Positions 8,227 to 57,339 of a stretch of 64,000 nt of DNA are shown here, piece after piece. Position numbers and translations under genes: made by a program. Origin of the DNA: Cymodocea nodosa. Its lineage: Eukaryota > Streptophyta > Magnoliopsida > Alismatales > Cymodoceaceae. The notes beneath the pieces are model-generated. The model saw only the letters and a program-made list of their open reading frames with translations, was not told the origin of the DNA and made no database searches. Position 1 is the stretch's first letter; each line of letters begins with the position of its first letter. The stretch is taken from contig CM072343.1 of the NCBI GenBank assembly GCA_036874045.1, forward strand, positions 12,110,001 through 12,174,000, written 5' to 3'.

Positions 8227-8405
8227 AGCAGTATAACTAAAGTAACTATATATATATATATAAGTTTATTTGTAGTTAATAGTATCGTAGAGTTAGTCCT
8301 TAACTTAATAAACTTAGTCCATTGAGTTATGCCCTAACTCCACGAGGGTGTGTAGTAGTTATGTTAATTTTTGTCTCTACTAAAATTTTTGTTTATGTTA
8401 TACAG

Positions 8406-20774: not shown

Positions 20775-21719
20775 ATCGATCCCTCCTAAGTATATCACTT
20801 ATAGCATTACATATATTATCTCCTAGATGCCTAATATCATTTCTGATGTCATTAAGCATTGCATCTAAGTTAGGAGGTAGTTGGGGTTGTTGTTCTGCTA
20901 GAACTGAATAACTTTGTTGTTGTGATTGTATATGTTCTGTACAGCCAAGTTGTTGTTGTCATTGAGTTTTATGCATGGCCTAGTATTTTTGCAAATCTTT
21001 TATACTAAATGTTCTCATGCCTTTAGTTTCAGAGGGCCAGTCGGATAAATTCAATTGGCTTGTAAGGAGTCTACATACAGCGTCACCATAAAATAACTTT
21101 GAACTCATATGCTGTAGTTGAGAAGTAAAAACATCAAACCAATTGATTTGAATTCTATTCAATAGACCATAAGTTGCATATAAACAGCTCTGCTGACTTC
21201 CATATTGAGTCCAACTCTCTAAAATAAATTTACATGCAATATATTTGCAATGAACCTTGCCTCTGCATTCAGATTTTCCATTAATCTCATTTCAGAATAT
21301 ACATTTGGAATTTTTGATAAAGACTTAATGATCCATTCCAGTTGTCTAATCATGTCAAATCTATTTGTAACAACACCTTCATTCTTTAATCCCAAAACTT
21401 CAAAAATTAACTCAGGAACAATATAAACTCCTATTGATTTATTTGAGTTTTCAAAAAAATTTCATTCTTGACCAGAATGCTATAAAAAGCTGCAATAAGC
21501 TCTGTGTATTGCTTCCATTTCGTTCCAAATGGCAAGAATTGAATGAGTCCTTGATACTTAAATAGATCTCTTATTTCCATCAAATTTCTAAATTTTATTG
21601 GTCGTGCATGTAGAATCTAACTTGTAATCAGATTATTATATTTCTGCAATGCTTCTTCAAATCTAAAATGAATTGAATTTCCTTGAATAATTATTGTTCT
21701 ATACAAAGAAGTTGATACC
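20775..21719 (-). pseudogene. Env-position ORF of element C, homologous to Athila-like ORF2 (left copy)
   Basis: Read on the - strand and ending just before the polypurine tract. Recognisable parts are NRIQINWFDVFTSQLQHMSSKLFYGDAV (about 21170-21085), which pairs with NRIQVNWSQVFLSKMKSTKKKLFYGDLI of the Athila-like ORF2, and then KDLQKY and a Gln-rich tail. The upstream part is cut by insertion of the LTR at 21720. The frame is broken several times. The fuller copy is at 62603-64000. Confidence 0.65.
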
Positions 21720-23546
21720 TGTTCGTGTTTTCCCAGCACTACACTAGAAAAACTTGGATTTGTTACTTCTATTTTTACTTAGTTAATTAATCTTTATGCC
21801 TATTCTTTCTTTTAGAAGTAAACAAACAACCTTTAATATAATTTAGATATTAATTCCAATTTGTACTTTAACTGCAAGTGCATAGTGTCTATTGTATCAG
21901 TGTGCAAGTACAGGTCGATCCCACAGGGAATTGCTAACGAATTTAAGAAATGTTTGATTGTAAACAATTCAAATTTATATTCAATAAGCACTACGTTGAG
22001 TTACAGTTAACTCAACGGACTAAGTTCGTTGAGTTATGGATAACTCAACAAACTATCCTCGTGGACTTAAGTTAACTCCACGAGCATGTCTCTTCTTTAT
22101 AATACTGCTAATTACAGAGGAATTCAGCCAACCATTGGGCGATTCCACAGATTGTAAATAACATCAATTAAGCTTTTTAATGCTAGTTAACATTGGATTT
22201 ATCATTATGCAATACTAACATTTAGATGATTCAAACAGTAACCATTAAAATCTTTAAGTTGTTTTGTACGAACCAATTTCAGTAAACTGTAAAATTAAAA
22301 CTAACATAAAACAATCATAAAATTGATACAGATAACATTAATCACGATACAACACCAACAATACAACACTCAAATACAACATACAAACAAAGATAAATTG
22401 TTTTTGGTATTTTTGTTTTGATGTGATGGGCGAAAGGTGAAATGTAAAGTAATTTCACTTGACAGTAAATACTTCTAACACTACATGCAACACAGTTACA
22501 CCACTGAAAATTGAACCACTTACAATTCTGTCTCCTCTCCCTATAGAATCGCGAGTCCAGAATTGCAAGATGATCTCCTCTTCAACATACAGGCATCAAC
22601 TCGAAGCCAAGGCTAAAAGCTTTACGATCTCCTGAAATATGAGTCGGCGCTTGGTGAAAATGTCTTCCCTTCCCGCGATGCGATCACTCCTCACAATGGT
22701 TGTCAGGCACTGTGTTTGGCTCGGAATCGACCCGACATCAGGCAAGTATCCTCACAGACCTCCGATGATTGGTGATTATGGTGGTGATATGATGGTTGGT
22801 GTGATACTTCGGGGAATCACCGATACTATCTGCAGAAAGCTCAGTGCTCCTCCTCTGTATACACTGGCCGTCCATCGATCACACTCTTTCTTTTTTTTCT
22901 TCTTTTCTTTTATATTTCTTCAGTGGTAACTGCTTCTGCTTGAATGGTTGGTTGGATTTCCTTCCTTCAGATCAACGACGATGATTTCTTTCTCCCTATG
23001 CAATTGAATTCCTGCGTGATACGTGCAAACGTGGTTTTTCCTTCCAACTGTCTGTTCCTGCAACCGCTACAATGGCATATTAGAAAATATATAGTCCGTG
23101 GAGTTACAGATAACTATAAAACACGTGCAAAAATAACAACTTAAGTTTATAACGCTAACCTAACGTGTTGCCTTAGTGTATTTTTATGTAACTCAATGCG
23201 TGCAGTTATACTAACTTATCGAGTTATAACGTAAGTAAATCTACCAGCTCTCAACACGTGTCAGCAATAGTTTAAACATAAAATAACATTCCGGAGAGTT
23301 ACAGGTATAACTATCCGATGCTCAGATGCATTTTCGGATACTTAAGAATTTCACAGCCTGCAATTTACCGACAGTTCATAAATATACTAAATTAACATTA
23401 ATTCCCAAAAATTAAGCAAATTCTTCAATTAAAGCATATAATAGTGCAATTATAACATAATGGCTTAATTCTCATATGATAAGCTAAATATTATGCAATT
23501 AACCATCATTTAACCGTTAATAATATGCACTTTTTCATTCTAAACA
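21720..23546 (-). repeat. 3' LTR of copy 2, minus orientation (1,827 bp)
   Basis: On the + strand it runs TGTTCGTGTTTTCCCAGC ... TTCATTCTAAACA, followed by the reversed polypurine tract CTTCCCCCATACCTAAATTT. It contains the GTGCAAGTACAGGTCGATCC block near 21903-21920, hairpin words CTCAACGGAC/GTTGAGTTA (21990-22085), the reversed donor-like CCACTTACAATTC near 22520, and the GC-rich leader zone (22600-22870). It is inserted in the env-position ORF of element C. Confidence 0.8.
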
Positions 23547-25267
23547 CTTCCCCCATACCTAAATTTTGCTAGTCCCTTAGCAAACTAAGATTTAATTAAT
23601 TGGTCTTTCAAAAAGTGCTAGAATTAATTCTCCCCCTTTTGTTTTTTGTTTTTCTTCTATTTAGCATAAACATATATTCTGTATGTTTTAGTAATCAACT
23701 TGCAAAGATATTTAGAATATATGTAAATTACATACAAAGTATATCATCTTCATATAGGTGTTAATTATATTATCGTTTGTTCTTCTTTTCATCATCTGTA
23801 ATCCTGAATTTTCCAATAAGTTTTTCTAGAAGAAATTTCAATAACATACAAATTAAAGTACAATCCAATTCAATCTGATTAAGACAAGTAGAATAAAGAA
23901 TTGTATTTGCATTAAACAACTTCAAAAGTCAATTCCAGATTCATATTTCAGCAATTCTAGATAACAGAAAATATACTCGATTCATAAGATATCTGTATTT
24001 CACCAAACACTTGTATCTTTTCGGAATAGTATATATATATTTTTTTTTTTGTACTTTAAAAGTTAATTTGACAAGCTTGAATCATGCAAGAGCTTTCTAA
24101 TGTACCCATGAAACGAGCTTTCAGTCAACAATCCCAGATCTAATCAAGATCTTAGGTTGCCAGATTTTCAGAGTCCTTTTTCAGGTCAACAATCCTTACA
24201 TACCTATCTGCTCAAGTACAAAAGGCTCGTGATCAAACAAGTCAATAAACTCTCAAAGTTTTTTTTTTTTTTTTTTTTAAAAAAATAAATGCACACACAA
24301 AACAAAGCATTAATCACATACTGTATATGCACGTATTTCATTAATACAGATGCAGTAAAACACCAATATCATATAATCCTGCTTCTATCATTTACTAAAG
24401 ATATGAATCCATAACAATAAGTTCATACTTTATCTGTAGTTTTATAAGATCTACACATAAATCATTCTACAAGTTCAATCAGTCAAAGTAAATGTATCTT
24501 TCATCATATGTGTTTCATTTAATCTAGAATTCACATCTCAGCTCCTTCAGGACTTCAAATAATTTTCTGATTAAGCATTAAATATTCTGATTTCATTTTA
24601 AAATTGTGAAACTGTTAAACTCATGAAATTCAGAAAAATCATAAGATACTATATCTAGATTTACATAAATAATAAATTCTATAGCATCTTCTATAGCCTT
24701 CTAAATATAACATTTAAGCAGTTTATAAAAATTTTACAATCTCAATTATCGGATAGTTACAGCAAGTTCATAAAAATTTTCAATTTCCTCAAAACTTTGT
24801 AGTACCATTTTAATTCCTTTAATTAACAAACTTACATGGTTGTTACTTTAATTACCTCCCCCCCATACCTACATTTTGCATTGTCCTCAATGTAAAAAAT
24901 TTGACAATAAGTACAATAATTGTAGCAGGCATGAATAAAGTTTTGTTTGATTTAAAATTCACGATAAGTAATTGGTTACATACCTTGTTCCATTTGTATC
25001 TCTTTCTGCATATTCTGATTTTTGATTTTGAAAAACTTTTCATTCCCAGATAAACACAGAATATAAAACAAAATAACATTTAACAGGTATTAATAAATCA
25101 GTGTCTTGTGTGGAACCCAGGCTTCTATGCCTTTGGTGGCTCACAAGCAAGCTAGTTGGTTTCCCAGAACAGATACCAACAAACTGGATTGATATTTTGT
25201 TTTTTTTTTTTGTTTTTTTATAAAAATAAATGCAGAATACGCAACATTAAACACACAAAATCACAGC
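23547..25267 (-). other. 3' noncoding tail of copy 2
   Basis: No gene is seen. It carries the LTR-proximal polypurine tract (23547-23560), the conserved 200-bp block (24051-24250), and the internal motif ACCTCCCCCCCATACCTACATTTTGCATTGTCC at 24853-24886 (read reversed). T-runs lie at 24041-24050 and 24260-24278. It ends 3' of the F-box gene with the conserved GCCACCAAAGGCATAG-type words (25115-25140, reversed). Confidence 0.65.
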
Positions 25268-26433
25268 TTAAGAACATGATTGAAAAGTAGAAACAAATGG
25301 AATAAATGTATCAGTCCAAGCAAACTTTTTAGGCATAGTTCTTCTTGCTATTAGTTCTATTTTAATGCAGTTTTTGGTCCTTTTTAATTTGTAAACATGC
25401 AATATATTATAAATTCCAAATACGAGTGTATTACCATTAATGATATGTAATGCAGAAAGAGATCCTTTCTGGTTCCAAGGTAATGTAGCAATTTCTATTT
25501 CTACATCTATTTCAATATACTCCTCTTCCCACTTCCATTCATTCATGTCTTCCATAATCCATATTTGAAATTTCATCAATTCATCCCACCATCTTATCAA
25601 ACATAAAGTAGAACATCTTTTTCATTATACCACATTCCTATTTGAATTTTATTAAATTTTTCAGATGGTGGTTTAGCTATTTCACTCGGTATAGGTAAAA
25701 TTTCTGTATAATCATCATAACTGTCTATGCTCACTATGTATAAATCAGATCTATATGCTATTGATATCTCCGTGACTAAATAAATATAACCATCAAGTAT
25801 GACATGTGTTTGGTTAATTAATGATTTCTGTCCTAGATATATTATAATGTTTTCATTCCAAGATCTGTTCAGAAAATTATACACACTTAAGCGTAAATCT
25901 TCACCCCAATTTCCTGTAGGTCTCCAATAATATAATTTTTCAGGAATTGCAGAATTTTTATCAGAAAATATTAAAGTTAACCCACAATTTTCAATTGGTG
26001 CTTCAAATATATTAGGTCTTCCTATATTACATTCTTCTCATGTTATAGGATTTCTTATCAAAATCTCAGGTAATGATAAACTTGCATACCTTGGTCTCGT
26101 CTTGTATATGATTAATCCTTCATCTATCCCCATAATATGACTCATTCCTTCTAATGCATTGGGTGGAGTTCCAGTAGTTTCTTCCATACCCAGATATTCA
26201 TGGGTATTTGAACTACGATTAAATGACCTCCATATGAATCCATCTCTAATCTTAGTCATTTTTGCAGCTTGTAGTCCCTGAAAATATTTTTCTTCAATAC
26301 AATCTTTAATTTCCTTTGATGCACAACACATCCTGCACAGATCTTTAGCTGACAAGTTACTTAGTATTTCCCTTTGTGCATCCAACGGTAATTGCATTAA
26401 TTCCATTTGTCGATTCAGTCTGAAGCTTTCCAT
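25268..26433 (-). pseudogene. F-box/FBA gene, intron-free form (copy 2)
   Basis: Starts at the ATG 26433 with MESFRL, encoded by what is the leader exon in copy 3, and runs straight into NRQMELMQLPLDAQREILSN at 26415. This copy therefore has the spliced arrangement in genomic DNA. F-box at residues ~10-50 (LPLDAQREILSNLSAKDLCRMCC), a middle region with YASLSLPEILIRNPIT and LSVYNFLNRSW-type strands, and an FBA-like C-terminal half (FQIWIMEDMNEWKWEEEYIEI, FIPFVSTFQ). About 388 codons, with roughly three breaks. In function it would be a substrate receptor of an SCF ligase; the target is unknown. Confidence 0.85.
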
Positions 26434-27337
26434 TCTATAAATATTTGTTGTCGGATGAAGGTTGAATCAGCTGCTTCTCCTTCCAGTTCCTCCAACGCTT
26501 TCTCCTTTCTCTTAAAAGTGCTGGTAACTCGTAAATAACATTCTGTTTCATATATATACTGCGCATCCATAAAGTGAATAAATCTCGTTGCAAGAACATG
26601 TCTTGCAACGTGCATCGTGGTTCCTGTTTTAATGGGTACGTGCACCACTTCTAATTTCAAATTTTGGTAATCGCTAAACCGACAAAGTTTCGTTTGTGGT
26701 TAAAAGAATAACCGTTCTGCTTAATCCACGAACTAACCTCGTTGAGTTACAGATTACTCAACAGAACATAGTCGGTTACTGTTGCTAACTCCATGGACTA
26801 ACTTCGTTGAGTTACAGATAACTCAACGGAGTGACCTTATATTATATTACCGACCTCGTGGAGTTAAGGTTAACTCAACGGAATTACTTCATTGAGTTAA
26901 CACTTGGCAACTTCTAAGTTTCACTCTCGTAAGTTTTCTATTCTGTTTTTTTTTTTTTTTTTCTTTGTCATTCTGCTAACTGTAATAAAGTTAAATCTAT
27001 GTCATTAATGCCTCATTTTGATTAAAATACATTTAAATCTGAACATTATATAAAGATTTAAATTGTAGGTCATTTTATGTTATGAAGAATTTACATTTTA
27101 CCTTATGACATGTAGAAATTTTTAAGCAGTTATCCTATCATTCAACAAATTGTAAATTTGTTAGATATTCATAAAGTTCCACAAATTACATAATATTCAA
27201 TAAATTCTATTCATTTCACATTCAAATAAGTATGAAAATTGCATCTGAAAAATTATATTCATTAATATGAATCAATTACATTACAAGTACATCATACAAT
27301 TTCATACAATTTTACACAAGTAGACGAACAATACAAT
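26434..27337 (-). promoter_or_regulatory. Leader exon and inter-ORF region of copy 2
   Basis: Homologous to 49799-50697 and 5427-6680. Adjacent to the F-box ATG lies the conserved leader (CTGGAAGGAGAAGCAGCTGATTC-like on the - strand). Next come a TATATATAC run near 26550-26560 and the GTTACCGACAAAG-type words. At 26740-26920 there is a cluster of CGTTGAGTTAC/TAACTCAACGG hairpin words. A T-run sits at 26948-26962. An 81-codon open stretch at 26415-26660 is not open in copy 3 and is probably untranslated leader. Confidence 0.45.
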
Positions 27338-28460
27338 TTAATCTCTATGCCTAAGTTCATCTACTTCCTTCTGGAGTTTTTCTAATTGCTGCTCTAATTG
27401 ATTTATCCTCTCTACTGCTCCTGCAATTTCTCTAAAAGGTACAGCTAATTCTGCAGCTACAAAATTTTTGTATTCTTTCACTGAAATGGTTCTAGATCTT
27501 ATCCTTTTTGATGTCCATTTAGTGAAATCAATACTATCCACCATCAGCAGTGGAATCAAATCTCCATAAAATAATTTCTTCTTTACTGTTTTCAACTTGG
27601 AGATAAAAACTACAGACCAATTTATTTAGATCTTATTTACAACTGCATACGTGGCCCATTTGACAAATTGACTTAATTCTATGTCATGGCCTTGTCGTTG
27701 ATAGACATTCTTAATCAGAATGTTAGCTACCATGTGTGCTTTACCATTTAAATGCTTCAATCTGTTTAATAATGGCACACTAGGATTGATAGCTAAACAA
27801 TCCTTAATTTGCTGCTCAGTCCATTCAACTGCAGTTGTATCCTCCAAAATTTTTGTTCCTTCATTCTTTAAACCAAATATGTTGTGGAGAAGCTCTGGTG
27901 TTATCTGTACATCAGCTTCCTCCACGTTTGAAATTAATTCTCCTTCTCCTTCTCTTAAATTTGCATAGAAATAGGGCACTAAATTCTCATATACTGCATG
28001 CCCTCTATCTTGAGATATAAATTGCAGTAGACTCTACTTGTTTTGAATATAAAAGGGTAGGGATAGCTGATTCATGCTCTTCCTCAAATGCATGTAGTCT
28101 TGTACCATTTATTGGTATTTGAGGAATTCTAGTTGTACCTACACCTTTTTCCAAATATTTTGCATATTGCTCGAGAAATGCAATCTCAACACATTTCATT
28201 CTGTATTCTCTATCATATTTACTTCGAATACTCATATATGTAATATTTTCATCAGTATTTTGAAGCTCTTGTCTAACTTCATCTAATATACCTTGAGGAA
28301 AGAAGTAATCTCTATAAATTTCTGCTAACCTTTTGTCCACTCGAAATATTTTCTTGAACCAAGAGCGTGGAACTTCATCATTCTCTATTTCTTTTTCTTT
28401 TGCATCTCCTCTGCTTTTGCCTTTTCCTCTGGCACAACCTTTGTAGAACTTGGAGACCAT
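27338..28460 (-). pseudogene. Env-position ORF2, short form (copy 2)
   Basis: Start MVSKFYKGCARGKGKSRG at 28460; end LQKEVDELRHRD at 27338. The N-terminal part (YFFPQGILDEVRQELQN) is diverged from copies 1 and 3 and resembles the remnant at 13440-14540. The C-terminal domain (YENLVPYFYAN, TPELLHNIFGLKNEG, INWSVVFISKLKTVKKKLFYGDLIPLL) is very close to copy 3. The long Glu-rich middle of the other copies is missing, so this form is about 375 codons against about 740. Two or so breaks. Function unknown. Confidence 0.7.
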
Positions 28461-40055: not shown

Positions 40056-40060
40056 ATGAT
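40056..40060. repeat. Target-site duplication ATGAT, left of copy 3
   Basis: ATGAT here and again at 57335-57339 directly flank TGTTTAG...AAACA, as expected for one retroviral-type integration of copy 3 into copia A gag. Confidence 0.9.
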
Positions 40061-40384
40061 TGTTTAGAATGAAAAACTGCATATTATTAACGGTTAAATG
40101 ATGGTTAATTACATAATATTTAGCTTATCATATAAGAATTAAGTCATTATGTTATAATTGCACTGTTATATGCTTTAATAGAAGAATTTGCTTAATTTGG
40201 GGGAATTAATGTTAATTTAGTACATTTATGAACTATTGGTAAGTTGCAGGCTATGAAATTCTTAAGTATCCGAATATTCTAATATTTCGGACAGTTATGT
40301 TTAACAGACCGAATATGTATCGGATAGTTATGTTTAAATTGCCGAACAGTTATGTTTTGAGAGAATATTTTATTATTTCCTTAA

Positions 40385-40800
40385 GTACACGTGTCGAAAC
40401 CATAATAAGTGACTTAAGTGAGTTATCTATAACTATCCAAAATTACAGTTGGGCATCGGATAGTTATCCCTGTAACTCTCCGAAATCTCTTTTTATTTAT
40501 AAAATAGCTGAGGACACGTGTCATGTTCTGGGAAATTGACTTAAGTGGATTTTCGATGAGTTAGTTGTAACTATCCGAAATGCAGCTGAGCATCGGATAG
40601 TTAGACCTGTAACTCTTTGAAATATTATTTTATGATTAAACTGCTGCTGACACGTGTCGAGATCCGGTAGATTTACTTAAGTTATATATCAGTGAGTTAT
40701 TTGTAACTATCCAAAATGCATCTGAGCATCGGATAGTTAAGTTTATAAGTATCTGAAATGCACCTGAGCATCAGATAGTTAAATTTATGCACGTGTTTTA
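40385..40800 (+). promoter_or_regulatory. U3 array: G-boxes with TAACTATCC/GGATAGTTA inverted words
   Basis: Four CACGTG sites (40388, 40515, 40651, 40790), three of them as ACACGTGTC, alternate with pairs of TAACTATCCRA and TCGGATAGTTA roughly 130 bp apart. G-boxes bind plant bZIP and bHLH factors (ABA, light and stress responses), so this is the likely enhancer zone upstream of the TATA-like site at 41030. The binding role is inferred. The same array is in the 3' LTR (55485-55900). Confidence 0.6.
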
Positions 40801-41029
40801 TAGTTAAATCAACGAAGAAAGTCCGTTGAGTTATCTATAACTCCACGGACTATATATTTTCTAATATGCCATTGTAGCGGTTGCAGGAACAGACAGTTGG
40901 AAGAGAAAAACCATGTCTGCACGTATCACGTAGGAATTCAATCACGTAGGGAGAAGAAAGCATCGCCGTTGATATGAATGAAGGAAATCCAACCGACCAT
41001 TCAAGCAGAAGCAGCTACTACTGAAGAAA

Positions 41030-41037
41030 TATAAAAG
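41030..41037 (+). promoter_or_regulatory. Candidate TATA box in the 5' LTR
   Basis: TATAAAAG, conserved at 12201-12208 and 56140-56147. An alternative, CTATATATTTT near 40850, lies 180 bp upstream. The transcript start is not visible. Confidence 0.4.
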
Positions 41038-41891
41038 AAAAGAAGAAAAAAAGAAGAAGTGTGTGATCGATGGACGGACAGTGTGTGTAGAGGAGGATCA
41101 GCGTCGCAATTCTCTAAAGTACCACACCAACCATCATCATCACCATCATCACCACTATAATCACCAACCATTGGAGGTCTGTGAGGATACTTGCTTGATG
41201 TCGGGTCGATTCCGAGCCAAACATAGTGTCTGACAACTACTGTGAGGAGTGATCACGTCACGGGAAGGGAAGCCATTTTCACCAAGCACCGACTCATATT
41301 TTAGGAGATCGTAAAGCTTTTAGCCTTGGCTTCGGGTTGATGCCTGTATGCTGAAGAGGAGATCATCTTCCAATTCTGGACTCGCGATTCTAGGGAGAGG
41401 AGACAGGATTGTAAGTGGTTTAATTTTCAATGGTGTAATCGCGTTGCAAGTAATGTCGGAAGTATTTACTATCAAGTGAGATTACTTTACATTTCACTTG
41501 TCGCCCATTTCCATGTTCATATTAAAACAAAAATACCAAAAACAATTTATCTATGTTTGTATGTTGTATTTGAGTGTTGTATTGTTTGCGTTGTATCGTG
41601 ATTAATGTTATCTTTGTCAGTGTTGTGATTGTTTTATGTTTATTTTAGTTTTACAGTTTACTAAAATTGGTTCGTTCAAAAGACTTAAAGATTTTAATGG
41701 TTACTATTTGAATTATTTGAATGTTAGTATTGCTCAATGATAAATCCAATGTTAACTAACATTAAAGAGCTTAATTGATGTTATTTACAATCTGTGGAAT
41801 CGCCCAATGGTTGGCCGAATTCCTCTGTAAATAGTAGTATTAAAAAGAAAAGTCAGGCTCGTGGAGTTAACTTAAGTCCACAAGGTTAGTC

Positions 41892-41915
41892 CGTTGAGTT
41901 AGCCATAACTCAACG
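41892..41915 (+). repeat. Perfect 10-bp hairpin in U5 (CGTTGAGTTA / TAACTCAACG)
   Basis: A 10-bp stem with the 4-base loop GCCA. The same perfect hairpin is at 13077-13100 and 57000-57023. It is the cleanest member of a word family scattered through all these elements. Confidence 0.85.
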
Positions 41916-42230
41916 AACTTAGTCCGTTGAGTTAACTATAAATCAACGGAGAGCTTATTGAATATATAAATTTGATTTTTAACAAATGAATAGTTCTCAA
42001 GTTCGTCTGCAATTCCCTGTGGGATCAACCTGTACTTGCACACTGATACAATAGACACTATGCACTTGTAGTTAAAAGTACAAATTGGAATTAATATCTA
42101 AATTGTATTAAAGGTTGTTTGTTTACTTCTAAAAGAGAGAATAGGCATAAAGATAAATTAACTAAGTAAAAACAGAAGTAACAAATCCAAGTTTTTCTAG
42201 TGTATTGCTGGAAAACCCAAACAAGTTGTA

Positions 42231-42248
42231 TGGCGCCGTTGCCGGGGA
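42231..42248 (+). other. Primer-binding site, tRNA-Asp type
   Basis: TGGCGCCGTTGCCGGGGA, seven bases after the 5' LTR, complements the 3' end of plant tRNA-Asp. It is the primer commonly found in Athila and related env-class Ty3/gypsy elements. Confidence 0.9.
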
Positions 42249-42341
42249 ATTGAATTGAATTGAATTAAATTGATATAAGCAACTGTTAGAGCTGTTTCAT
42301 TTAAATAGCCAAAGTGTGTGTTTTCTTCTATAATTGAGAAT

Positions 42342-43249
42342 ATGGCATATGCTTATGCTCAAAGATTTCTGAAACCTGTAATTAGCATATGTGAATTCTA
42401 CAATTCTGAAGGACACGACATTTCTGACTGTTTGAAATTGAGACGTTTACAAATTGTTAGATCCCATGAACATCAAATGAATTATCCTCAATATAATAGA
42501 GCCAAGTATGAGAATCCTATAGTTTACCCAACTAATGGTCAGTATAGAATGTGTAATATGATGAGAGACACTGAAGTTTGGGATAGCTATGACAGACTGG
42601 AGCATAGTATAGAGCAAAATCTGGACAAACTGGAACACTTTGTGTGTCAACAACAAGAAGTCAACCAATTAAACGATAAGGAGGCATATTCAGAACCTAA
42701 AAGGGATATGATTTACGAAACTGAAAAAACTATAAAGAAAATTGATCAACAAGTGAATGCAATGGAATTAGATGATCTTGAAAAAAAATTAAAAGCATTA
42801 AACGAAAATGCAATGAAAATACAAGTTATGCAACAGGACAATGAAAATTATAATGTTATAAACCTGCATAACCTGCAAAATATACAGCAAACAGAAAAGA
42901 CTAATGCAAGAGAATTTAAAGAATGCACTTTAAAACTAAAAACAATTGAAGATCATAATCACGAAAATGATATACAAAAACATCATGATAGTAACGAAAA
43001 TCTAGAAGATGTATGTGTAACATTAAGATCTAGAACTAATATACCACCATGAACTCAAAATGAAAATCATATGAAGGTGGAGAAGAGTAAAAATCAAAAT
43101 GATAATGAAAAAATAGCTGAAAATCTAGAAATCACTGAAGAACAATCTAAATTTGCGAATGAAGCTAAAAATGATCAAACAAATCAACTAAAAGAAAAAG
43201 AGTCTTTGAAATCAAAATCTTTAGCACCCTATCCTAAAAGATTACAATA
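42342..43249 (+). pseudogene. Short 5' gag ORF: zinc-knuckle-like motif and coiled coil, no capsid domain
   Basis: Starts MAYAYAQRFLKPVISICEF. CEFYNSEGHDISDC at residues ~17-30 is a CCHC-type knuckle in spacing (C-x2-x-x4-H-x4-C) and in context equals the CEIC..GH...C box in the middle of Athila Gag. A long Lys/Glu/Asn-rich coiled coil follows. The segment VCVTLRSRTNIPP near 43015-43050 equals the Athila 'TLRSGK' box that precedes protease. The usual capsid domain (LPHFHGLE...) is absent here and lies instead at 50742-52083. A few breaks. Confidence 0.75.
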
Positions 43250-46200
43250 GACAAATCCTAAAAAACAAAAAAAAATCAGAGAATTTTTGAAAAAGTACAA
43301 GTTAATATTCCTTTGTTAGATCTATTGCAGAAAATGCCACCTTGTGCTAAATTTCTTAAGGATTGGTGTACTAAGAAAAGAGAGCGAAAAGTTCTTAGAA
43401 AGGTCTTTTTAGCTGAGCAAAGTAGTTCCCTATTTCTGCCACAAATTCCTAAAAAGTTATCTGATCTTGGAATCCTTGTTATATCATGCACCATAGGAAA
43501 TACCATTTTAGAAAGAACATTAATAGACTTAGGTGCAGGTATAAATGTTATGCCAAGTGATATATTTGCATCCTTAGGATTAGAAGGCTTAACTCCTACT
43601 AGTACGATTATTCAATTAGCTGATAGAAGTATAAGAAACCCTAGAGGAAAAATAGAGGATGTCTTAATTAAAATCAAAAATTTTATATATCCTATTGATA
43701 TTGTAATTTTGGATTCCCAACAAATTAAGTATAAAAATAGTGATACATCTTTAATTTTGGGAATGCCATATTTAGCAACATCAGGGGCTGTTATAAATTG
43801 TAAAACTGGAGTAATGAAGTTAGCATATGGTAATGAGGATACTCAATTAAATATTTTCAAACCAGAAAGGTTTGAGGAGTTAGAAATGTCCTTACATACC
43901 ATAGACTTTTTAGAGGATGAAGGTGATATGCTAGATGATGTGATTCAAGAAGAATTAAATAGGCAAATCAATTCTGAAACTTTAGAAGAAAGTGAAAGCA
44001 TAAATATAGAAGGAGATCGGGAAGAAATTAATTTAAAAAATGATGATGTTCAGTTAGGAGCTCTAGCATCTGATGGGCAGCATTTAGAATTAAAACCTTT
44101 ACCTCCTGAATTAACCTATATATTTCGGGAAGATAAATGTACCTGTCCAATCATTATTGCTTCAGATTTAAAAGAGTATCAAATAGTTAAATTAAAAGAT
44201 GTAGTAAAAAGTTATAAAGAAGTAATAGGATGGACTATGACTGATATTAAAGGGTTAAGTTCAACTTTATGCTGTCACCACATATATTTAGAAGAGAATG
44301 CTAAATCTATTAGAATTCCTGAGAGGAGATTAAATCCAAACCTTAAAGAAGTAGTCAAGAAGGAAATAGTTAAATGGTTAGATAATGATATAATTTATCC
44401 GATTTCTGATAGCTCGTGGGTTAGTCCAATCCATGTAGTTCCCAAGAAATCAGGATTAACAGTTATTAGGAATGAAAGTCAAGACTTGATACCTACTAGA
44501 ATTCAATCAGGCTAGAGAGTATGTATAGACTATATAAAGTTGAATGCTGTGACTAGGAAATATTATTTTCCCTTACCTTTTATAGACCAAATGCTGGAAA
44601 GATTAGCAAGGCAAGAATATTTTTATTTCCTAGATGGGTATTCAGGGTATAATCAAATTCCAGTAGCATTAGAGGATCAAGAGAAAACAACTTTCACCTG
44701 TCCTAATGGAACTTATGCTTTTAAAAGAACGCCATTCGGATTATGCAATGCGCTAGCTATCTTTCAAAGATGTGTGTAGGGCATATTTACTAGAATGACT
44801 AAGGATTTTTTAGAAATATTTATGGATGCTTTTACTGTATATGGCAACTCATATGAAGTGTGTTTAAGCAATTTAGACCAAATATTAAAACGCTGTGTGG
44901 AAAAAAATCTGGTTTTAAATTGGGAAAAATGTCACTTCATGGTTAAACAAGGAATAGTCTTTGGGCATGTTGTTTCTAAAAAAGGGTTGGAAGTAGATAA
45001 AGCTAAAATAGAAGTAATATCTAATCTACCAGAACCTAAATCAGTAAAAGATATTAGATCATTTCTAGGACATGCTGGTTTTTATAAAAGATTTATTAAA
45101 GACTTTAGCAAGATAGCTAGACCTTTAACTAATCTATTAAAAGATGTTCCATTTAACTTTGATAAAAATTGCAAGGAAGCATTTTTCAGACTTAAGACTA
45201 GCTTAATTTCAACTCCTATAATTCAAGCACCTGATTGGAACCATCCATTTCAGTTAATGTGCGATGCTTCTGATTTTACTATAGGAGCAGTGTTAGGACA
45301 GAAGATAGAAAAATCTCCTAGAGTGATTCATTATGCAAGCAAAACCTTAAATGATGCTCAAGTTAATTACACAACTACTGAAAAAGAATTATTAGCTGTT
45401 GTGTTTGCTTTAGAAAAGTTTAGATCATATCTAATTGGAGCTAAAGTAATAGTATACACGGATCATTCAGCTCTAAAACATCTAATAAAGAAAAAAGAAA
45501 CTAAACCTAGATTGATCTGATGGATATTATTATTACAAGAATTTGATCTAGAAATTAAAGATAAAAAAGGTTGTGAGAATGTAGTAGCAGATCATTTATC
45601 AAGATTACAAATAGAAAAATCAAATATTGAAATTAAGGATAATTTTCCTGATGAATAGTTAATGACCATCAACACAATGCCTTGGTATGTAGACAGAGTT
45701 AATTACTTAGTTACTAGTTTAACACCTAAGGATTGGAATAGACAGGATAAGAAATTGTTTTTCTCAAGAGTAAAATATTACTATTGGGAAGACCCATACT
45801 TATTTAAGAAATGTCCTGATCTGGCTTTAAGGAGGTGTGTTCCAGAAACTGAATATCCGAGTATATTATCTTTCTGTCATGACCAGGCTTGTGGAGGACA
45901 TTTTGGTTCAGGGAAATCTGCTGCAAAAATTCTACAATGTGGGTTTTATTGGCCAACACTATTCAAAGATGCTCATAAATATTGCTTAAGTTGTTTAAGA
46001 TGTCAACAAATAGGAAGAATACCAAAGAGGAATATGATGCCTCTTAATCCTATTATTGAGGTTGAAATCTTTGATTTATGGGGAATAGATTTTATGGGTC
46101 CATTTCCTATGTCTAATCAATTTAATTACATTTTGTTGGGGGTGGATTATGTATTAAAATGGCTAGAAGCTATCCCTACAAAAACTAATGACAACAAAGT

Positions 46201-46983
46201 GGTAATACAATTTATAAGAACAAATATATTTGCCAGATTTGGAATACCTAAAGCTATTATCAGTGATAGAGGAACTCATTTCTGTAATAGAAGTTTTGAA
46301 GCCTTAATGAAGAAATATGGAGTAAACCACAAAATTGCAACATCATATCATCCGCAAACAAGTGGACAAGTAGAAAGTGCAAACAAACAAATTAAATTAA
46401 TTTTGGAAAAAGTAGTAAATCCTACTAAGACAAATTGGGCTAATAGATTGGTAGATGCACTTTGGGCTTATAGAACTGCTTATAAAGCGAGCTTAGGTAT
46501 GTCACCTTTTAGGCTAGTATATGGAAAAAGTTGTCATTTACCTACTGAAATAGAACATAAAGCTTATTGGGCATTAAAAACTCTGAACATTAATTTAAAT
46601 CAAGCTACTGAAAATAGAAAAATGCAACTAATTGAATTAGAAGAATTTAGAAATGAAGCTTATTTGAAGACTGTAAGAGAAAAAGAAAAATTAAATTTTG
46701 GCATGATAGAAAAATTATTCCTAAAAGCTTTGAAATAGGACAAGAAGTATATCTTTATATGGCTAGACTCCATAACCATCTAGGAAAATTGAAATCTAGA
46801 TGAGTAGGACCTTACATAGTTCGAAATGTTTATCCTTATGGAGCTATTGAAATTGAAAATCCTAAAAATCAGAATATATTTAAAGTAAGTGGACAAAGAC
46901 TTAAACCTATTCTGAAAACACCAAAAAGCTCCTTTGGAATTATAGAAGAAGTCAAAGTAGAGGATTACTCGAGTTTTACTTAG
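43250..46983 (+). pseudogene. Protease-RT-RNase H-integrase fossil (copy 3)
   Basis: The linker VNIPLLDLLQKMPPCAKFLKDW is Athila-type. Protease at about 43480-43760 has LIDLGAGINVMP and a later LGMPYL. The RT region spans about 44380-45000 (FTCPNGTYAFKR, FMDx[13 protein letters not shown]). RNase H is at 45230-45530. Integrase follows from 45880, with HHCC finger ([27 protein letters not shown] ... CLRCQQIG) and DDE core ([31 protein letters not shown]). The tail ends EDYSSFT at 46983. About five breaks. Close to copy 1 at 1-2620. Confidence 0.92.
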
Positions 46984-47578
46984 TAAGAAATCAGTTTTTA
47001 TGTTTATATATAAATAAAAAAAACATTAAAAATATATATAAAACATAAAAATCATTGCGGTTCAACCGACTCGAACCATCGGTATGACCAGAACATAAAA
47101 AATATGAATATTAATGTTCAGAAAAAATTTTGGTTTTACCAAAATATAGTATCGATTCAACCAAACGAAAAAATTAAAAGTAAAAAAAATAAAAAAATAT
47201 ATATTTGGGTCTTACCGAAACATAGTATCGATTAAACCGGTAACAAAATAGAAAAACTATTCTCTATAATATATTATTATTATATTTGCTTTTACGGGGA
47301 GTCCGTTGAGTTACGTTTAACTCAACGAGCTTACTCTGTTGAGTCTTGAGTTAGTCAACGAGCTTATTCCGTAGAGTTAACTGTAACTCAACGGAGTACT
47401 GTAGCTAAGATCGTGGATAAAATAGTAATAGTTGGTTCGGGAAATGACCCGATTACCCGCCTAAACTTAGGGCTTGTTTAAACTAAAACCTAGGGTTTTA
47501 GGGGCATTATCCGGCAAATCATTTAGAATCTAGAATAGTAGAAATCAGAGCGATTCCGTGCTATTGTGTAACTCCACG
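46984..47578 (+). repeat. Spacer between pol and ORF2: ACCGA repeats and hairpin words
   Basis: Homologous to 2621-3213. About 47055-47240 holds units around ACCGAAACATAGTATCGATT; 47300-47410 holds CGTTGAGTTA, TAACTCAACG and TAACTCAACGGAG words. The line AAAACCTAGGGTTTTAG near 47486-47502 could serve as a splice acceptor before ORF2, but nothing here proves use. No gene. Confidence 0.6.
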
Positions 47579-49798
47579 ATGAGGATGATGAAGTCTGAAT
47601 TTTGGGAAAAGGCAGTGGACACTGCATAGTTTCTAAAGGAATCTGAAGAATAGCACACGAGGCAGAAGATCAGAAATACAATGAGAGAAAAAGAGTTACA
47701 GAAGGTAGAATCAGAACTCTTTAACTTGAGAAAAATTTTGGTTGAATTAGAAATACAGATACCACAGATAATGGAGACACGAATTAGAGTGGCAACTGAA
47801 ATTGCATTAAGTAAAGAAAGAAAAATCCAGCCAAACAATGAAGTAGCCCTAGAGCTAATTCAACATAAAGCTAGATTGTGGTTTAAGAAACGTATTGCTG
47901 GACGAGGAAGCTGGGAAATATGGCGGCAGGAACAACAAGAGGCAACTGAAGGACAAGAAGAGCCGACTGCTGAAAGACCTGTTCCTGAGGAGCAGCAGTT
48001 AGGACCTTCAATTCCACCATTTAAGTCGTTGGCACGAGCAGAAATGATGGGGCCTTCGACTAAAGAATAAGTAAGAGAATTTGCAGAACTGGTTCAAGTT
48101 GGGAAGAACCAAGGAGAATCAGAAGATTTGGCAATGGCCAAAGCACACCTAGTGTTTGATGCACTTTACAAAAAGAGGGCTACAGAAAAGTTGAAAGCCC
48201 AATATAAAATCAAATTGGAATAGCATCACGAAGCTACTGCCAGAACTACTGCCAAATATGCTGCAAAAGAAGCTGAAGCTAGTCCTTCGGGACCAATAGT
48301 TATAAAAAAAGTTAAATAGGAAGAGCCAATACCTATGGCTTGAAGGCTTGCAGAACCTACTTTTATAGATTTAATTTCAGGAGATGAAGAGGAAGAACAA
48401 GCACAACTAATCAGAAAAAAGAAAGGAAAGGAAAAAGTGCTTGAATATGAGGAAATTAAATCTGAAGTACCAATTTTTACAGGGCCTGTGGAGCAGATTT
48501 TTATTAACCTACTATCCGATTCTAAGGAGGAGCAAGAGGAGCAAAGAAAAGAAAAAAATCAGGCTAAAATTAGTCTACAGCCTGTACAAGAAGAAACAGA
48601 AATTAGGGCAGAAACTGAATTGCCCGTGACTCCATCCCAATCTATTACAAAATCAGAAAGAACAGTAACAGAACAGATTGGTAGTTAGGAGCCGCAAGAA
48701 AGTGAAGAAAATGAAGAGGCTGAAAGAAGCCATTTGGACAAAAATAATTTCACAGATTCCATTGAAGAGAAAGAAACTCTTCAGCAAATTATGGAAAGAA
48801 TTCAAGAAAGAGTGGAGAGTTCTGCCAGCTCACCACCACAAACAGAAGCAAAAGCAAAAATCCAGGAATCTGAAGAGAATGTCCAAATGTAGCCTATGCT
48901 AGAGGAAGATCAAGAATAAACCCCTCTAGAGCAACAAAGTCACCTTCCTAACCCGACTGAAACAACAATTTTGAATGAAGTACATTTTTGTAGTCAGGAA
49001 GCTTATACCAAATACCAAGAAATAAGGGGTTATGATATCATTTACAGTAGACCAGTAAATTGGGATGGAATGCAAGAAATTAAAGAATTATTTGAATTCC
49101 AAGGTCTACTGTAATTTATATCTCAAGAAAGAGGGCATGTAGTATATGAAAATTTAGTGCCCTGTTTCTATGCAAATTTGAGAGAAAGAGAAGGAGGATT
49201 AATTTCAAACATGGAGGAAGCTGATGTACAGATAACACCAGAGCTTCTCCACAACATATTTGGGTTAAAGAATGAAGGAACAAAAATTTTAGAAGATACA
49301 ACTACAGTTGAATGGACTGAACAGCAAATTAAGGATTGTTTAGCTATCAATCCTAGTGTGCCATTATTAAACAGATTGAAGCATTTAAATGGTAAAGTAC
49401 ACATGGTAGCTAACATTCTAATTAAGAATGTCTATCAATGACAAGGCCATGACATAGAATTAAGTCAATTTGTCAAATGGGCCACATATGTAGTTGTAAA
49501 TAAGATCCAAATAAATTGGTTTGTAGTTTTTATCTCCAAGCTGAAAATAGTGAAGAAGAAATTATTTTATGGAGATTTGATTCCACTGTTGATGGTGGAC
49601 TATATCGATTTCACTAAATGGAAATCAAAAAAGATCAGATCAAGAACCATTTCAGTGAAAGAATACAGGAATTTTATAGCTGCAGAACTAGTTGTACCTT
49701 ATGGAGGAATTACAGGAGCAGTAGAGAGGATTAATCAATTAGAACTTCAATAAGAAAAACTCCAGAAGAAAGTAGATGAACTTAGGCATAGAGATTAA
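47579..49798 (+). pseudogene. Env-position ORF2 fossil (copy 3)
   Basis: Starts MRMMKSEFWEKAVDTA, near-identical in layout to copy 1: a coiled-coil N-terminus (KELQKVESELFNLRKILVEL), the block IQPNNEVALELIQHKARLWF, a Pro/Glu linker, a very Glu/Gln-rich middle, then the conserved C-terminal domain from IIYSRPVNWDGMQEIKELFEF through YENLVPCFYANLRE, TPELLHNIFGLKNEG and KKKLFYGDLIPLLMVD, ending DELRHRD. About 740 codons with six or so breaks. It has no transmembrane segment that I can see. It may be nucleic-acid or capsid-associated rather than an envelope; function unknown. Confidence 0.75.
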
Positions 49799-50697: not shown

Positions 50698-50715
50698 ATG
50701 GAAAGCTTTAGACTG

Positions 50716-52263
50716 GTATGTAATTAATCTGCTATTTATTTATGAGTACATGGACTCGTTCTCTAAGCACTAAACGATTAGTAAGAACACCTACCCAGGA
50801 ATTTTCATTGCAGAGGAGTACTGAAAAATTTTCTGAACTGAACTTTAATGAAATTCTTTGGGGTGTAGCTAACCTTTCTTTCAAGGAGAACGTAGAGATG
50901 GCTGTTCTAGTAGAAAAACCATTAGGAGAGATTCTGTATCCTGAATTAGTTGATGAACCTTCATATATTCGATTGCCAAACTTTGAGGGAGATATGTTTG
51001 AACTGAAATCTAATTATACTAGTCAATTACCACATTTTCATGGATTAGAAAGAGAGGATGCCTATTATTTCCTTAGAGAATTTAACGAAGTTTGTCAAAT
51101 GATGAAAATGCCGAACATGAATATAGATGCTATTAAACTTAGATATATCCCTTTTTCTTTAAAAGACATAGCTAAAAGATGGTTATATACTCTATCGCCT
51201 GATTCAATTTCTACATGGACTGAATTTTGCTCTATTTTTCTGGAAAAATATTATCCAACACATCAAACGATTAAAAAGAAGAAAGAAACATTAATGTGTA
51301 GCCAAAAACAGGGTGAATCATTCTGGAAATATTTTGAAAGATTTAATGATTTACTGACTCAATGTCCACATCATGCAATGAGTAAAGCACAATTAATAGG
51401 TATAATTTATGAAAGCATAGATGTTTCAACGAAATATTTATTAAAATCTACTTGTCAAAATGGATTTTTTAAATTATGTAGTGAAGAAGCATGGGCATAT
51501 TTAGAAAATTTTGAAAAGAACTACACAGTGGGAAAATTCGGCTGAAGCTATTGTAGATAAAAAAATATTGCCAAGAGGAATGCATGAAATAGATTCCAAT
51601 ACTATGCTTGAGGTGAAATTAAATGAATTAACAAAGAAAATAGAAGAGTTATCATTAAATCAAAAGCTAGTAGAAAAGAATGCAAACATAAATGACTTAG
51701 ATATTATTTATGCTAGAAACCAAAGAGATAACTTGGGAAATTCTTATCATCCTAATTGGAGAAATCACCTAAATTTATCTTGGAGAAACAATAATTTCCA
51801 AGGAGGAGAAAATATAAATGAGAAAAACATAAGTTATGAAGTATTAATTGAACAAGGAGCTAGAATAGAAAAATTAGAAAAGATAATACAACAAGTAAAC
51901 AATCGTCTAGAATTTATATTTCAAAATACTGCAATTCAAAATCAGAATAGAAATATATCACTTAGATAGAAGGAACCAATGGAAGTTAAACCTACTAGAG
52001 GATTGCCAATACAAGCTATACCTAATCTTATCAATAGAACGGTTAATGAAATTGATACCTCTTCTAGGAGGACAGCTGAATGAAATAGCATATCTGAAGC
52101 AACTATCTATATGCATATATGTTTTTTATTTTAGTTAATAGTATCGTAGAGTTAATTTTTTACTCAACGAACTTAGTCTGTTGAGTTATGCCTTAACTCC
52201 ACGAGGGTGTGCAGTAGTTAGGTTAATTTTTGTCTCTGCTAAATTTTTGTTTATGTTTTACAG
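50716..52263 (+). other. Candidate intron containing the entire gag ORF (1,548 bp)
   Basis: The 5' border CTG|GTATGT is a good plant donor. The 3' border has a T-rich tract ending TTTATGTTTTACAG. Copy 2 lacks exactly this segment: its junction at 26415/26416 joins GACTG directly to AATCGACAAATGG. Gag begins 26 bases inside the intron and stops 180 bases before its end, so retention versus removal would switch between gag and F-box products. Confidence 0.8.
50742..52083 (+). pseudogene. Capsid-type gag fossil downstream of pol (copy 3)
   Basis: Starts MSTWTRSLSTKRLVRTP. Residues ~95-230 are the Athila/Ty3 retrotransposon-gag domain: LPHFHGLEREDAYYFLREF, IKLRYIPFSLKDIAKRWLY, SWTEFCSIFLEKYYPT-like, and GESFWKYFERFNDLLTQCPHH. 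Then EEAWAYLENF, a coiled coil (VKLNELTKKIEELSLNQKL), SYHPNWRNHLNLSWRNN (the Athila NTYNPGWRNHPNFSW box) and a second coiled coil (IEKLEKIIQQVNNRLEF). It has no zinc knuckle; that lies in the 5' ORF. About 447 codons, two or three breaks. Lies within the intron of the F-box unit. Confidence 0.88.
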
Positions 52264-53412
52264 AATCGACAAATGGAATTGATGCAATTACTAATGGATG
52301 CACTAAGGGAAGTACTAAGTAACTTGTCAGCTAAAGATCTGTGTAGGCTGTGTTGTGTATCAAAGGAAATTAAAGACTGTATTGAAGAAAAACATTTTCA
52401 GGGACTACAAGCTGCAAAAATGACTAAGATTAGAGATGGATTCATATGAAGATCATTTAATCGTAGTTCAAATACCCATGAATATCTGGCTATGGAAGAA
52501 ACTACTGGAATTCCACCCAATGCATTAGAAGGAATAAATCATATTATGGGGATAGATGAAGGATTAATCATATACAAGACGAGACCAAGGTATGCAAGTT
52601 TATTATTACCTGATATTTTGATAAGAAATCCTATAACAGGAGAAGAATGGAATATAGGAAGACCTAATAGATTTGAAGCACCAACTGTAAATTGTGGGTC
52701 AGCTTTGATATTTTCTGATAAAAATTCTACAATTCCTGAAAAATTATATTATTGGAGACCTACAGGAAATTGGGGTGAAGATTTACGCTTAAGTGTGTAT
52801 AATTTTCTAAACAGATCTTGGAATGAAAATATTATGATATATCTAGGACAGAAATCATTAATTAACCAAACACATGTCATACTTGATGGATATATATATC
52901 TAGTCACGGAGATATCATTAGCATATAGATCTGATTTATACATAGTGAGAGTAGACAGTTATGATGAATATATAGAAATTTTACCTGTACCGAGTGTAAT
53001 AGCTAAACCACCATCTGCAGAATTTAATGAAATTCAAATAGGAATGTGGTATAATGAAGAAGATGATCCTACTTTATGTTTGATAAGATGGTGGGATGAA
53101 CTGATGAAATTTCAAATATGGATTATGGAAAACATGAATGAATGGAAGTGGGAAGAGGAGTATATTGAAATAGATGTAGAAATAAAAACTACTACATTAC
53201 CCTAGAACCAAAAAGGATCCCTTTATGCATTACATATCATTAATGGTAATACACTCGTATTTGGAATTTATAATATATTACATGTTTACAAATTAAGAAG
53301 GAACAAGAACTGTATTAAAACAGAATTAATAGTAAGAAGTACTATGCCTAAAAAGTTTGCTTGGACTGATACATTTATTCTATTTGTTTCTACTTTTCAA
53401 ACATATTCTTAA

Positions 53413-55145: not shown

Positions 55146-55159
55146 AGGTATGGGGGAAG
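55146..55159 (+). other. Polypurine tract of copy 3
   Basis: AGGTATGGGGGAAG immediately precedes the 3' LTR start TGTTTAG. It is preceded by GGGACTAGCAAAATTT, also conserved at 11296-11311. Confidence 0.85.
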
Positions 55160-57334
55160 TGTTTAGAATGAAAAAGTGCATATTATTAATGGTTAAATGA
55201 TGGTTAATTGCATAATATTTAGCTTATCATATAAGAATTAAGCTATTATGTTATAATTGCATTATTATATGTTTTAATTGAAGAATTTGCTTAATTTGGG
55301 GGAATTAATGTTAATTTAGTACATTTATGAACTGTCGGTAAGTTGCAGGCTGTGAAATTCCTAAGTATCCGAATATTCTGATATTTCAGACAGTTATGTT
55401 TAAGAGACCAAATATGTATCGGATAGTTATGTTTAAATTGCCGAACAATTATGTTTTGAGAGAATATTTTATTATTTCCTGAAGTACACGTGTCGAAACC
55501 ATAATGAATGACTTAAGTGAATTTTCAGTGAGTTATCTATAACTATCCGAAATTGCAGTTGGGCATCGGATAGTTATCCCTGTAACTCTCTGAAATCTCT
55601 TTTTATTTATAAAATAGCTGAGGACACGTGTCATGTTCTAGGAAATTGACTTAAGTGGATTTTCGGTGAGTTAGCTGTAACTATCCGAAATGCAGCTGAG
55701 CATCGGATAGCTAGACCTGTAACTCTCCGAAATATTATTTTATGATTAAACTACTGCTGACACGTGTCGAGATCTGGTAGATTTACTTAAGTTATATATC
55801 AATGAGTTATTTGTAACTATCCGAAATGCATCTGAGCATCGGATAGTTAAGTTTATAAGTATCTGAAATGCACCTGAGCATCGGATAGTTAAATTTATGC
55901 ACGTGTTTTATAGTTAAATCAACGAAGAAAGTCCATTGAGTTATCTATAACTCCACGGACTATATATTTTCTAATATGCCACTGTAGCGGTTGCAGGAAC
56001 AGACAGTTGGAAGAGAAAAACCATGTCTGCACGTATCACGCAGGAATTCAATCACGCAGGGAGAAGAAAGCATCGCCGTTGATATGAATGAAGGAAATCC
56101 AACCGACCATTCAAGCAGAAGCAGCTACTACTGAAGAAATATAAAAGAAAAGAAGAAAAAAAGAAGAAGTGTGTGATCGATGGACGAACAGTGTGTGCAA
56201 AGGAGGATCGGCGTCGCAATTCTCTGAAGTACCACACCAACCATCATCATCACCATCATCACCACTATAATCACCAACCATCGGAGGTCTGTGAGGATAC
56301 TTGCTTGATGTTGGGTCGATTCCGAGCCAAACACAGTGCCTGACAACCACTGTAAGGAGTGATCACGTCGCGGGAAGGGAAGCCATTTTCACCAAGCACC
56401 GACTCATATTTCAGGAGATCGTAAAGCTTTTAGCCTTGGCTTCGGGTTGATGCCTATATGCTGAAGAGGAGATCATCTTCCAATTCTGGACTCGCGATTC
56501 TAGGGAGAGGAGACAGAATTGTAAGTGGTTTAATTTTCAATGGTGTAATCGCGTTGCAAGTAGTGTCGGAAGTATTTACTATCAAGTGAGATTACTTTAC
56601 ATTTCACCTGTCGCCCATTTCCATGTTCATATTAAAACAGAAATACCAAAAACAATTTATCTATGTTTGTATGTTGTATTTGAGTGTTGTATTGTTTGCG
56701 TTGTATCGTGATTAATGTTATTTTTGTCAGTGTTGTGATTGTTTTATGTTTATTTTAGTTTTACAGTTTACTGAAATTGGTTCGTTCAAAAGACTTAAAG
56801 ATTTTAATGGTTACTGTTTGAATTATCTGAATGTTAGTATTGCTCAATGATAAATCCAATGTTAACTAACATTAAAGAGCTTAATTGATGTTATTTACAA
56901 TCTGTGGAATCGCCCAATGGTTGGCCGAATTCCTCTATAAATAGCAGTATTAAAAAGAAAAGTCAGGCTCATGGAGTTAACTTAAGTCCACGAGGTTAGT
57001 CCGTTGAGTTAGCCATAACTCAACGAACTTAGTCCGTTGAGTTAACTATAAATCAACGGAGAGCTTATTGAATATATAAATTTGATTTTTAACAAACGAA
57101 TAGTTCTCAAGTTCATCTTCAATTCCTTGTGGGATCGACCTGTACTTGCACACTGATACAATAGACACTATGCACTTGTAGTTAAAAGTACAAATTGGAA
57201 TTAATATCTAAATTGTATTAAAGGTTGTTTGTTTACTTCTAAAAGAGAGAATAGGCATAAAGATAAATTAACTAAGTAAAAACAGAAGTAACAAATCCAA
57301 GTTTTTCTACTGTATTGCTAGAAAAATCCAAACA
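55160..57334 (+). repeat. 3' LTR of copy 3 (2,175 bp)
   Basis: Matches the 5' LTR throughout, by eye about 3-5% different, with differences denser in the first 250 bp. It contains the same G-box array (55485-55900), TATA-like site (56140-56147), donor-like GTAAGT (56522) and U5 hairpins (56990-57065). Ends CCAAACA at 57334, then ATGAT. Confidence 0.92.
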
Positions 57335-57339
57335 ATGAT
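57335..57339. repeat. Target-site duplication ATGAT, right of copy 3
   Basis: Pairs with 40056-40060. Confidence 0.9.

Follow-up and report, generated by a model that had tools for sequence, protein, structure and literature searches.

We consider it very probable, judging from the DNA, that the capsid gene of an Athila-like Ty3-type element in the host genome lies within an intron, and that splicing of this intron followed by reverse transcription has given rise to copies of the element that lack gag. The element carries an F-box gene between pol and the 3' LTR, with the capsid ORF in the phase-0 intron of that gene and the zinc-knuckle part of Gag remaining 5' of pol. As proposed here, the unspliced RNA would most likely be both the genome and the capsid message, and the spliced RNA would give rise to the F-box protein. 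RNA spliced at the capsid intron would occasionally be reverse transcribed and integrated, and the resulting capsid-less copies could retain the 5' end and pol. Splicing and then reverse transcription had been suggested as the source of the gag-less copies in an earlier reading made from the letters alone (the sequence-only reading), and this suggestion is strongly backed here by the numbers of places found genome-wide, by how precise the junctions are, by splice signals and by trees.

A complete element with capsid and zinc knuckle apart

The window, that is, the whole stretch of 64,000 nucleotides analysed, contains copies 1 to 3 of the element. Copy 3 (40061-57334) is a complete Athila-like LTR element of 17.3 kb, flanked by a 5-bp target duplication (ATGAT, unstranded, 40056..40060 on the left and 57335-57339 on the right). 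On the + strand it has, in order, a 5' LTR (40061..42223, TGTTTAG..CCAAACA), the primer binding site TGGCGCCGTTGCCGGGGA (42231..42248), which we take to be of the Athila/tRNA-Asp type, a 5' ORF (42342..43052), pol (43334..46738), an env-like region (47411..49740), the F-box gene and a 3' LTR (55160..57334), the last preceded by polypurine-like TATGGGGGAAG. The LTR pair is 96.4% identical (K2P 0.037). These LTRs, the 5-bp target duplication, the primer site and the polypurine tract are hallmarks of Athila-like Ty3/gypsy elements, and from the LTRs, primer site and Pfam domains we judge the family to be Athila-like and of Ty3 type. The protease, RT, RNase H and integrase ORFs are broken into pieces, with Pfam RT, RNase H and rve domains matched in the pol region. 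The env-like ORF after pol has a weak match to Transposase_32 (E 0.0066, below the curated cut-off), and in a subfamily its block is absent and replaced by filler.

Other features were seen in and around copy 3. A-rich tracts follow the env-like ORF region (50173-50182) and the F-box exon (53455-53500), as would be seen if messages of both had been captured. Inverted words of the type GTTGAGTTA..TAACTCAAC recur in the LTR (41885-41948), before exon 1 (50230-50400), in the intron interior (52150-52200) and after pol (47304-47393). Two stretches, 57651-59094 and 32639-34080, are 93.7% identical and each lies beside pieces of these elements, and at 37634-39880 (- strand) there are ORFs that by eye resemble Ty1/copia-type gag and integrase.

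The first exon of the F-box gene ends ATGGAAAGCTTTAGACTG (coding end ATG GAA AGC TTT AGA CTG, 50698..50715, + strand), and the second (52264..53412, + strand), which has internal stops in copy 3, continues in frame into the F-box domain. The exon-1 ATG is present in 64 of 67 rows and TATATATA is found in the leader in 66 of 67, two of the rows being duplicates. The leader TATATATA, which lies at about 50566 in the window, could be the promoter of a short message, the alternative being a long spliced LTR transcript. In L028, a natural gag-less copy, 388 codons are open across the join, and the protein has an F-box (E 1.8e-8; 34.4 bits for the domain against a curated cut-off of 20.5) and a weak match to FBA_1 (E 0.035, below the cut-off). 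A frame of at least 385 codons runs across the join in 6 of 30 gag-less loci. No relative of the F-box protein was found at E 0.001 when the protein database entries sharing words with it were compared, and a comparison by sequence with the PDB found none.

The capsid ORF (50742..51545, + strand; 267 aa in copy 3, where it is frameshifted) matches Pfam Retrotrans_gag (E 5.3e-18), and its frameshifted continuation runs to about 52084, still inside the intron. Its database relatives include a walnut gag protein. In the relative L038 the capsid frame is 447 aa long, and the intron protein of this copy matches two database gags over the capsid and a WRNHP stretch, by eye without the zinc-knuckle part that both of these gags carry in between. 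The 5' ORF starts at the missing part (CEFYNSEGHDISDC) and leads on to the protease, as judged from what we take to be zinc-knuckle and TLRSG motifs in the Gag parts of the element. A Pfam search with the 5' ORF gave no match, and the comparison with a database gag gave weak similarity (E 0.02). The usual position of a capsid gene is at the 5' end. At 84 places genome-wide (no mismatch, all listed) it is a capsid-less ORF that follows the primer site, its ATG lying 75-105 bases beyond the site. We infer that Gag is split, with the capsid in the intron and the zinc-knuckle part ahead of pol at the 5' end. The sequence-only reading had described the whole gag ORF as an intron, which is upheld for the capsid ORF, wholly inside the intron, but not for the zinc-knuckle part, which sits in the 5' ORF in at least 84 copies. 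A single-sequence structure model of the capsid had a mean pLDDT of 41 and was set aside.

Comparison of copies 1 and 3 by the Nei-Gojobori method gives dN/dS values of 0.18 for RT-RNase H, 0.26 for integrase, 0.40 for the capsid and 0.57 for the F-box exon, and a stretch of non-coding intron treated as coding sequence gives 0.94; the F-box value between copies 2 and 3 is 0.68, and decay after insertion pulls every one of these values towards 1. The proteins of intron and exon thus both seem to have been used, the F-box protein with the least certainty. It has to be considered that the intron is spliced while the capsid ORF within it is a passenger or non-working, with capsid supplied by another family and no switch. 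The gag frame of copy 3 is broken (as is its F-box frame, and both count against our preferred explanation), a gag ORF of more than 440 codons is present in 1 of the 29 relatives with the whole block, and codon-position tests among the young copies gave a weak, uninformative signal. In addition, if the intron is kept, the F-box ATG opens a short upstream frame ahead of gag. The difference between 0.40 for the capsid and 0.94 for the non-coding piece argues against a passenger, as do the near-fixed spacing of donor and capsid word at 1451 places and the start of the 5' ORF without capsid; we regard this alternative as unlikely, though with appreciable weight. The donor-to-capsid spans fall mostly into two classes, of about 337 and 352 bases, among 100 places listed.

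Intron borders and the exact gag-less join

Under the branch-site rules for spliceosomal introns, TGCTAA (52237..52242, + strand), 22 bases from the acceptor, resembles a branch point. It lies near the end of an intron of 1548 bases (GTATGT..TTACAG, 50716..52263, + strand) that splits the F-box gene in phase 0. A rereading of copy 3 places the donor between ACTG and GTATGT at 50715/50716 and the acceptor between TTTTACAG and AATCG at 52263/52264, and the borders first proposed are correct to the single base. Among copy 3 and 29 gag-bearing relatives, 30 copies in all, GT stands at the donor in 28, AG at the acceptor in 29 and T[AG]CTAA at -22 from the acceptor in 28. In copy 3, T accounts for 54% of one non-coding end of the intron (26 bases), 44% of the other (179 bases) and 29% of the gag frame; plant introns are U-rich according to passages of one paper (PMC3735527). 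With its GT..AG borders, branch-like site and T-rich ends, the block has the features of a spliceosomal intron at the sequence level, and the cut would presumably be made by the spliceosome.

Copy 2 (21717..28032, - strand) comprises the 3' half only. It joins GACTG to AATCGAC at 26416/26415 (exact join of exon 1 and F-box exon, 26415..26416, - strand), as the sequence-only reading had stated; the G present at either end leaves the join ambiguous by one base. That reading had also taken copy 2 for a retrocopy of the spliced form. Its place in the spliced class is retained, but its 5' half is private and rearranged. Since it is without pol and its 5' breakpoint, 28032, was found once in the genome, copy 2 is a rearranged member of the class, and a clean full-length retrocopy is rejected. 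Upstream of it there are an older LTR piece and an ORF (28005-28460, - strand), which has no Pfam family above the cut-off and weak similarity (33%) to 13939-14169. At 30056-32623 (+ strand), next to the LTR fragment, there is part of an older and roughly 70% identical relative of the same 3' region and LTR.

Copy 1 (1-13400) bears gag (block 6676..8405, + strand), its donor GT reads AT and its F-box start codon reads ATA. Its gag contains a 163-base tandem duplication (7801-8127). When the three copies are compared, copy 1 is the odd one out at 198 sites in the left flank (versus 45 and 60 for the others) and at 183 in the right (versus 98 and 83), and copy 1 has gag, so that, under a rough clock, the gap in copy 2 would represent a loss. 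In the reverse order the gag-less state would come first, and the F-box gene would have received a gag cassette afterwards. The normal 5' position of capsid genes speaks for it, as the cassette must therefore have moved to the F-box gene at some time, and counts of changes alone give no direction. However, gag is present in diverged copy 1 and in two other diverged copies, L083 (whole block) and L081 (part), both about 84%; no border duplication was seen flanking the gag block; and the block starts with GT, ends with AG and has its branch-point-like site at a fixed place. Later insertion, which with a target duplication at the borders had been named beforehand as the finding that would count against splicing, is thus disfavoured; given the diverged gag-bearing copies and the intron-like ends we reject it as very improbable.

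Genome-wide counts were made in the 375-Mb host genome (28 contigs, the window lying within contig C15) by searching for joined, acceptor and donor words with up to 2 mismatches, with reversed words as control. The joined, gag-less form occurs at 484 places (control 0), the unjoined acceptor with intron at 1472 (control 0) and the unjoined donor with intron at 3484 (control 1), and ratios between these counts are rough because the words differ in length and conservation. When the distance between exon-1 and exon-2 words was left free over 0-30 bases, with no mismatch, 144 places were found (control 0), and all 100 of the 100 listed span exactly 37 bases. The search for other copies that the sequence-only reading had proposed thus finds gag-less ones with exact junctions, and the scattering that it had held would speak against splicing is not seen among the 100 listed. 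Such exact intron-less DNA copies are taken here to stand in for spliced RNA.

A search with the F-box exon gave 4075 candidates at first look; 40 of them were scored, and the 39 outside the window were read. The whole block, of 1386-1572 bases, is present in 29 of these relatives and the exact join in 5. The remaining 5 keep the acceptor side but have other deletions, and no exon 1 was found in them. Eight donor places were also read: five have the whole block and three have deletions with other borders. Gag might also have been removed by ordinary deletion of DNA or by template jumps, and the family does contain such deletions (L078, L080, L081, L012, L026, L027). Their borders differ, whereas the 100 listed junctions share one, and scattered deletion as the source of the gag-less copies is rejected, its probability being close to nil. 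In L078 the deletion (about 934, element orientation) fuses the equivalent of window position 52109 with the F-box exon at its first base, and a second donor may have been used here with the same acceptor.

The gag-less copies are more than 3' fragments, as some keep the 5' end or integrase. Among the 100 gag-less joins listed, six have the primer site and the start of the 5' ORF within 16 kb upstream on the same strand. In three of them the 5' end lies at 8.4-8.6 kb (8.37 in copy 3), as expected if gag alone is missing; in one it lies at 6.26 kb, against 6.04 expected if gag and the control block (see below) are both missing; and in two it lies at 15.2 and 3.8 kb, unlike the expected distances. 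The gag-less loci L039 and L043 extend back into the integrase region.

Trees and the number of gag losses

Trees were built from the sequences flanking the intron position. Ten of the 30 gag-less loci were dropped (eight rearranged and two representing the same places as L028 and L043), and L025, copy 1 and rows of less than 700 bases were also left out. In a further set of 20, 6 lack exon 1, and 4 of the 14 usable left flanks were dropped as long or rearranged. In the joined-flank tree (63 rows) the gag label changes 11 times, with at least four changes forced, and a single gag-less clade is rejected (p 8e-94). The left-flank tree has 14 changes with 70 rows, including two long ones, and 13 with the 65 rows that remain without long rows; at least seven of the latter are forced by well supported branches and one gag-less clade is rejected (p 7e-77). 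In the right-flank tree (55 rows), whose gag-bearing rows were picked by similarity to copy 3 and are biased in this way, there are 8 changes, at least two of them forced, and a single clade is weakly rejected (p 0.011). Because C/T and G/A changes, the kind expected from methylation decay, make up many of the shared differences, the clade tests were repeated with transversions only. A single gag-less clade is again rejected for the joined (p 9e-5) and left (p 3e-66) flanks, and is not rejected for the right flank (p 0.10).

A one-off deletion of the env-like block, which joins 47410 to 49741 with filler like CCTAAA and marks a subfamily, was used as a control; it is found at 224 places genome-wide. 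The possibility that 47411-49740 is a second intron was rejected, as the ten joins printed carry filler and no GT..AG. The nine gag-less rows with the control deletion were never rejected as one clade in six tests (p 0.13 to 0.68), this group leaving out L039, in which the left border of the deletion differs, and the gag-bearing L030, L037, L093 and L100, which have the same deletion. In retests with quick trees, the full control lineage including its gag-bearing members was not rejected as one clade (left, 14 rows, p 0.38; right, 12 rows, p 0.57), and the 16 remaining gag-less rows, a group about as large but without the control deletion, were rejected as one (left p 2e-51, right p 0.023). 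Of 100 control-deletion places listed, 16 have the exact spliced join 958-980 bases downstream and at least 11 lead into the gag-bearing arrangement, the other 73 being without assignment against a reference list of gag-bearing places that is partial. Gag-less copies without the control deletion also exist (for example L048, L050, L051, L057 and L061), and gag-bearing and gag-less members are found both within the control-deletion subfamily and in the rest of the family. There have therefore been at least two losses, unless sequence was exchanged within about 970 bases.

These results bear on the possibility that one past splicing accident gave one gag-less element, which multiplied on the capsid of other copies, so that continuing splicing would be unneeded. 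The gag-less label is clustered, with 11 changes against 21 in shuffles, and part of the 484 may therefore go back to older gag-less copies or to common source elements; the right-flank transversions are likewise compatible with one clade. The remaining tests reject one clade, the rejection holds without the control-deletion rows, and both the control lineage and the rest of the family are mixed, and we consider a single accident improbable. Most likely, splicing and reverse transcription occurred more than once, though recombination between copies could spread a single loss to several backgrounds.

Known elements and a possible switch

Ogre-type introns lie between protease and RT, and the intron found here follows integrase. 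Ogre, CRR and BARE1 are, like the present element, plant LTR elements with an intron, and according to passages of one paper Ogre splices between ORFs, CRR removes rt, and BARE1 expresses Gag after the removal of 104 bases (PMC3735527). The same passages describe BARE2 as a gag-less parasite of BARE1, report a failure to amplify DNA copies of spliced BARE RNA from the DNA of barley and expect elements to avoid reverse transcription of spliced RNA (PMC3735527). Unlike BARE in barley, the element described here has hundreds of spliced-form DNA copies. Its gag-less copies might multiply on capsid supplied by other copies, in the way of BARE2 (PMC3735527).

With Athila, Calypso and Diaspora the element shares the primer site type, long LTRs, the capsid type and an extra ORF after pol, and it differs from them in having the capsid downstream of pol, in an intron, and an F-box gene. 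In the passages seen, Diaspora has a single gag-pol ORF, and loss of its env through reverse transcription of spliced RNA is an earlier proposal (PMC1142308). Passages of another report describe splicing of the env-like RNA of Bagy2 (PMC7264820). As in the env splicing of Bagy2 and retroviruses, the donor is upstream of gag and the acceptor upstream of a 3' accessory gene; unlike in these, the donor lies in the 3' part, pol would be kept in the spliced RNA and the capsid alone removed. Alternative splicing sets gag output in the Ty1-copia element EVD through shGAG, as far as the passages seen describe it (PMC8892269); there splicing produces gag, and here it removes it. In the titles, abstract starts and passages of the open-access literature that were covered, neither a capsid in an intron nor an F-box gene in an LTR element was found.

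A switch between gag and F-box protein through intron retention versus removal, as the sequence-only reading envisaged, is plausible: retention would give the capsid, and the two proteins would be alternative products. The F-box protein may work in an SCF complex, perhaps against silencing. Polerovirus P0, in the part of the source seen, is an F-box protein acting against AGO1 (PMC6593998), and the likeness, which is one of kind of protein and not of sequence comparison, is that of an F-box protein of a parasite; our guess would be that the protein of the element acts on silencing via SKP1, as P0 might suggest. Taken furthest, this would be a split-Gag element whose capsid comes only from the retained intron, in which splicing switches between shell and F-box (SCF) protein, perhaps against silencing, and leaky packaging of spliced genomes produces capsid-less parasites, a picture that we put forward tentatively and with some doubt.

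If the explanation is correct, the capsid of this retroelement is made from an intron, and its hundreds of DNA copies would be a natural record of spliced retroelement RNA being reverse transcribed. The element would also offer a testable switch between a structural and an accessory protein.
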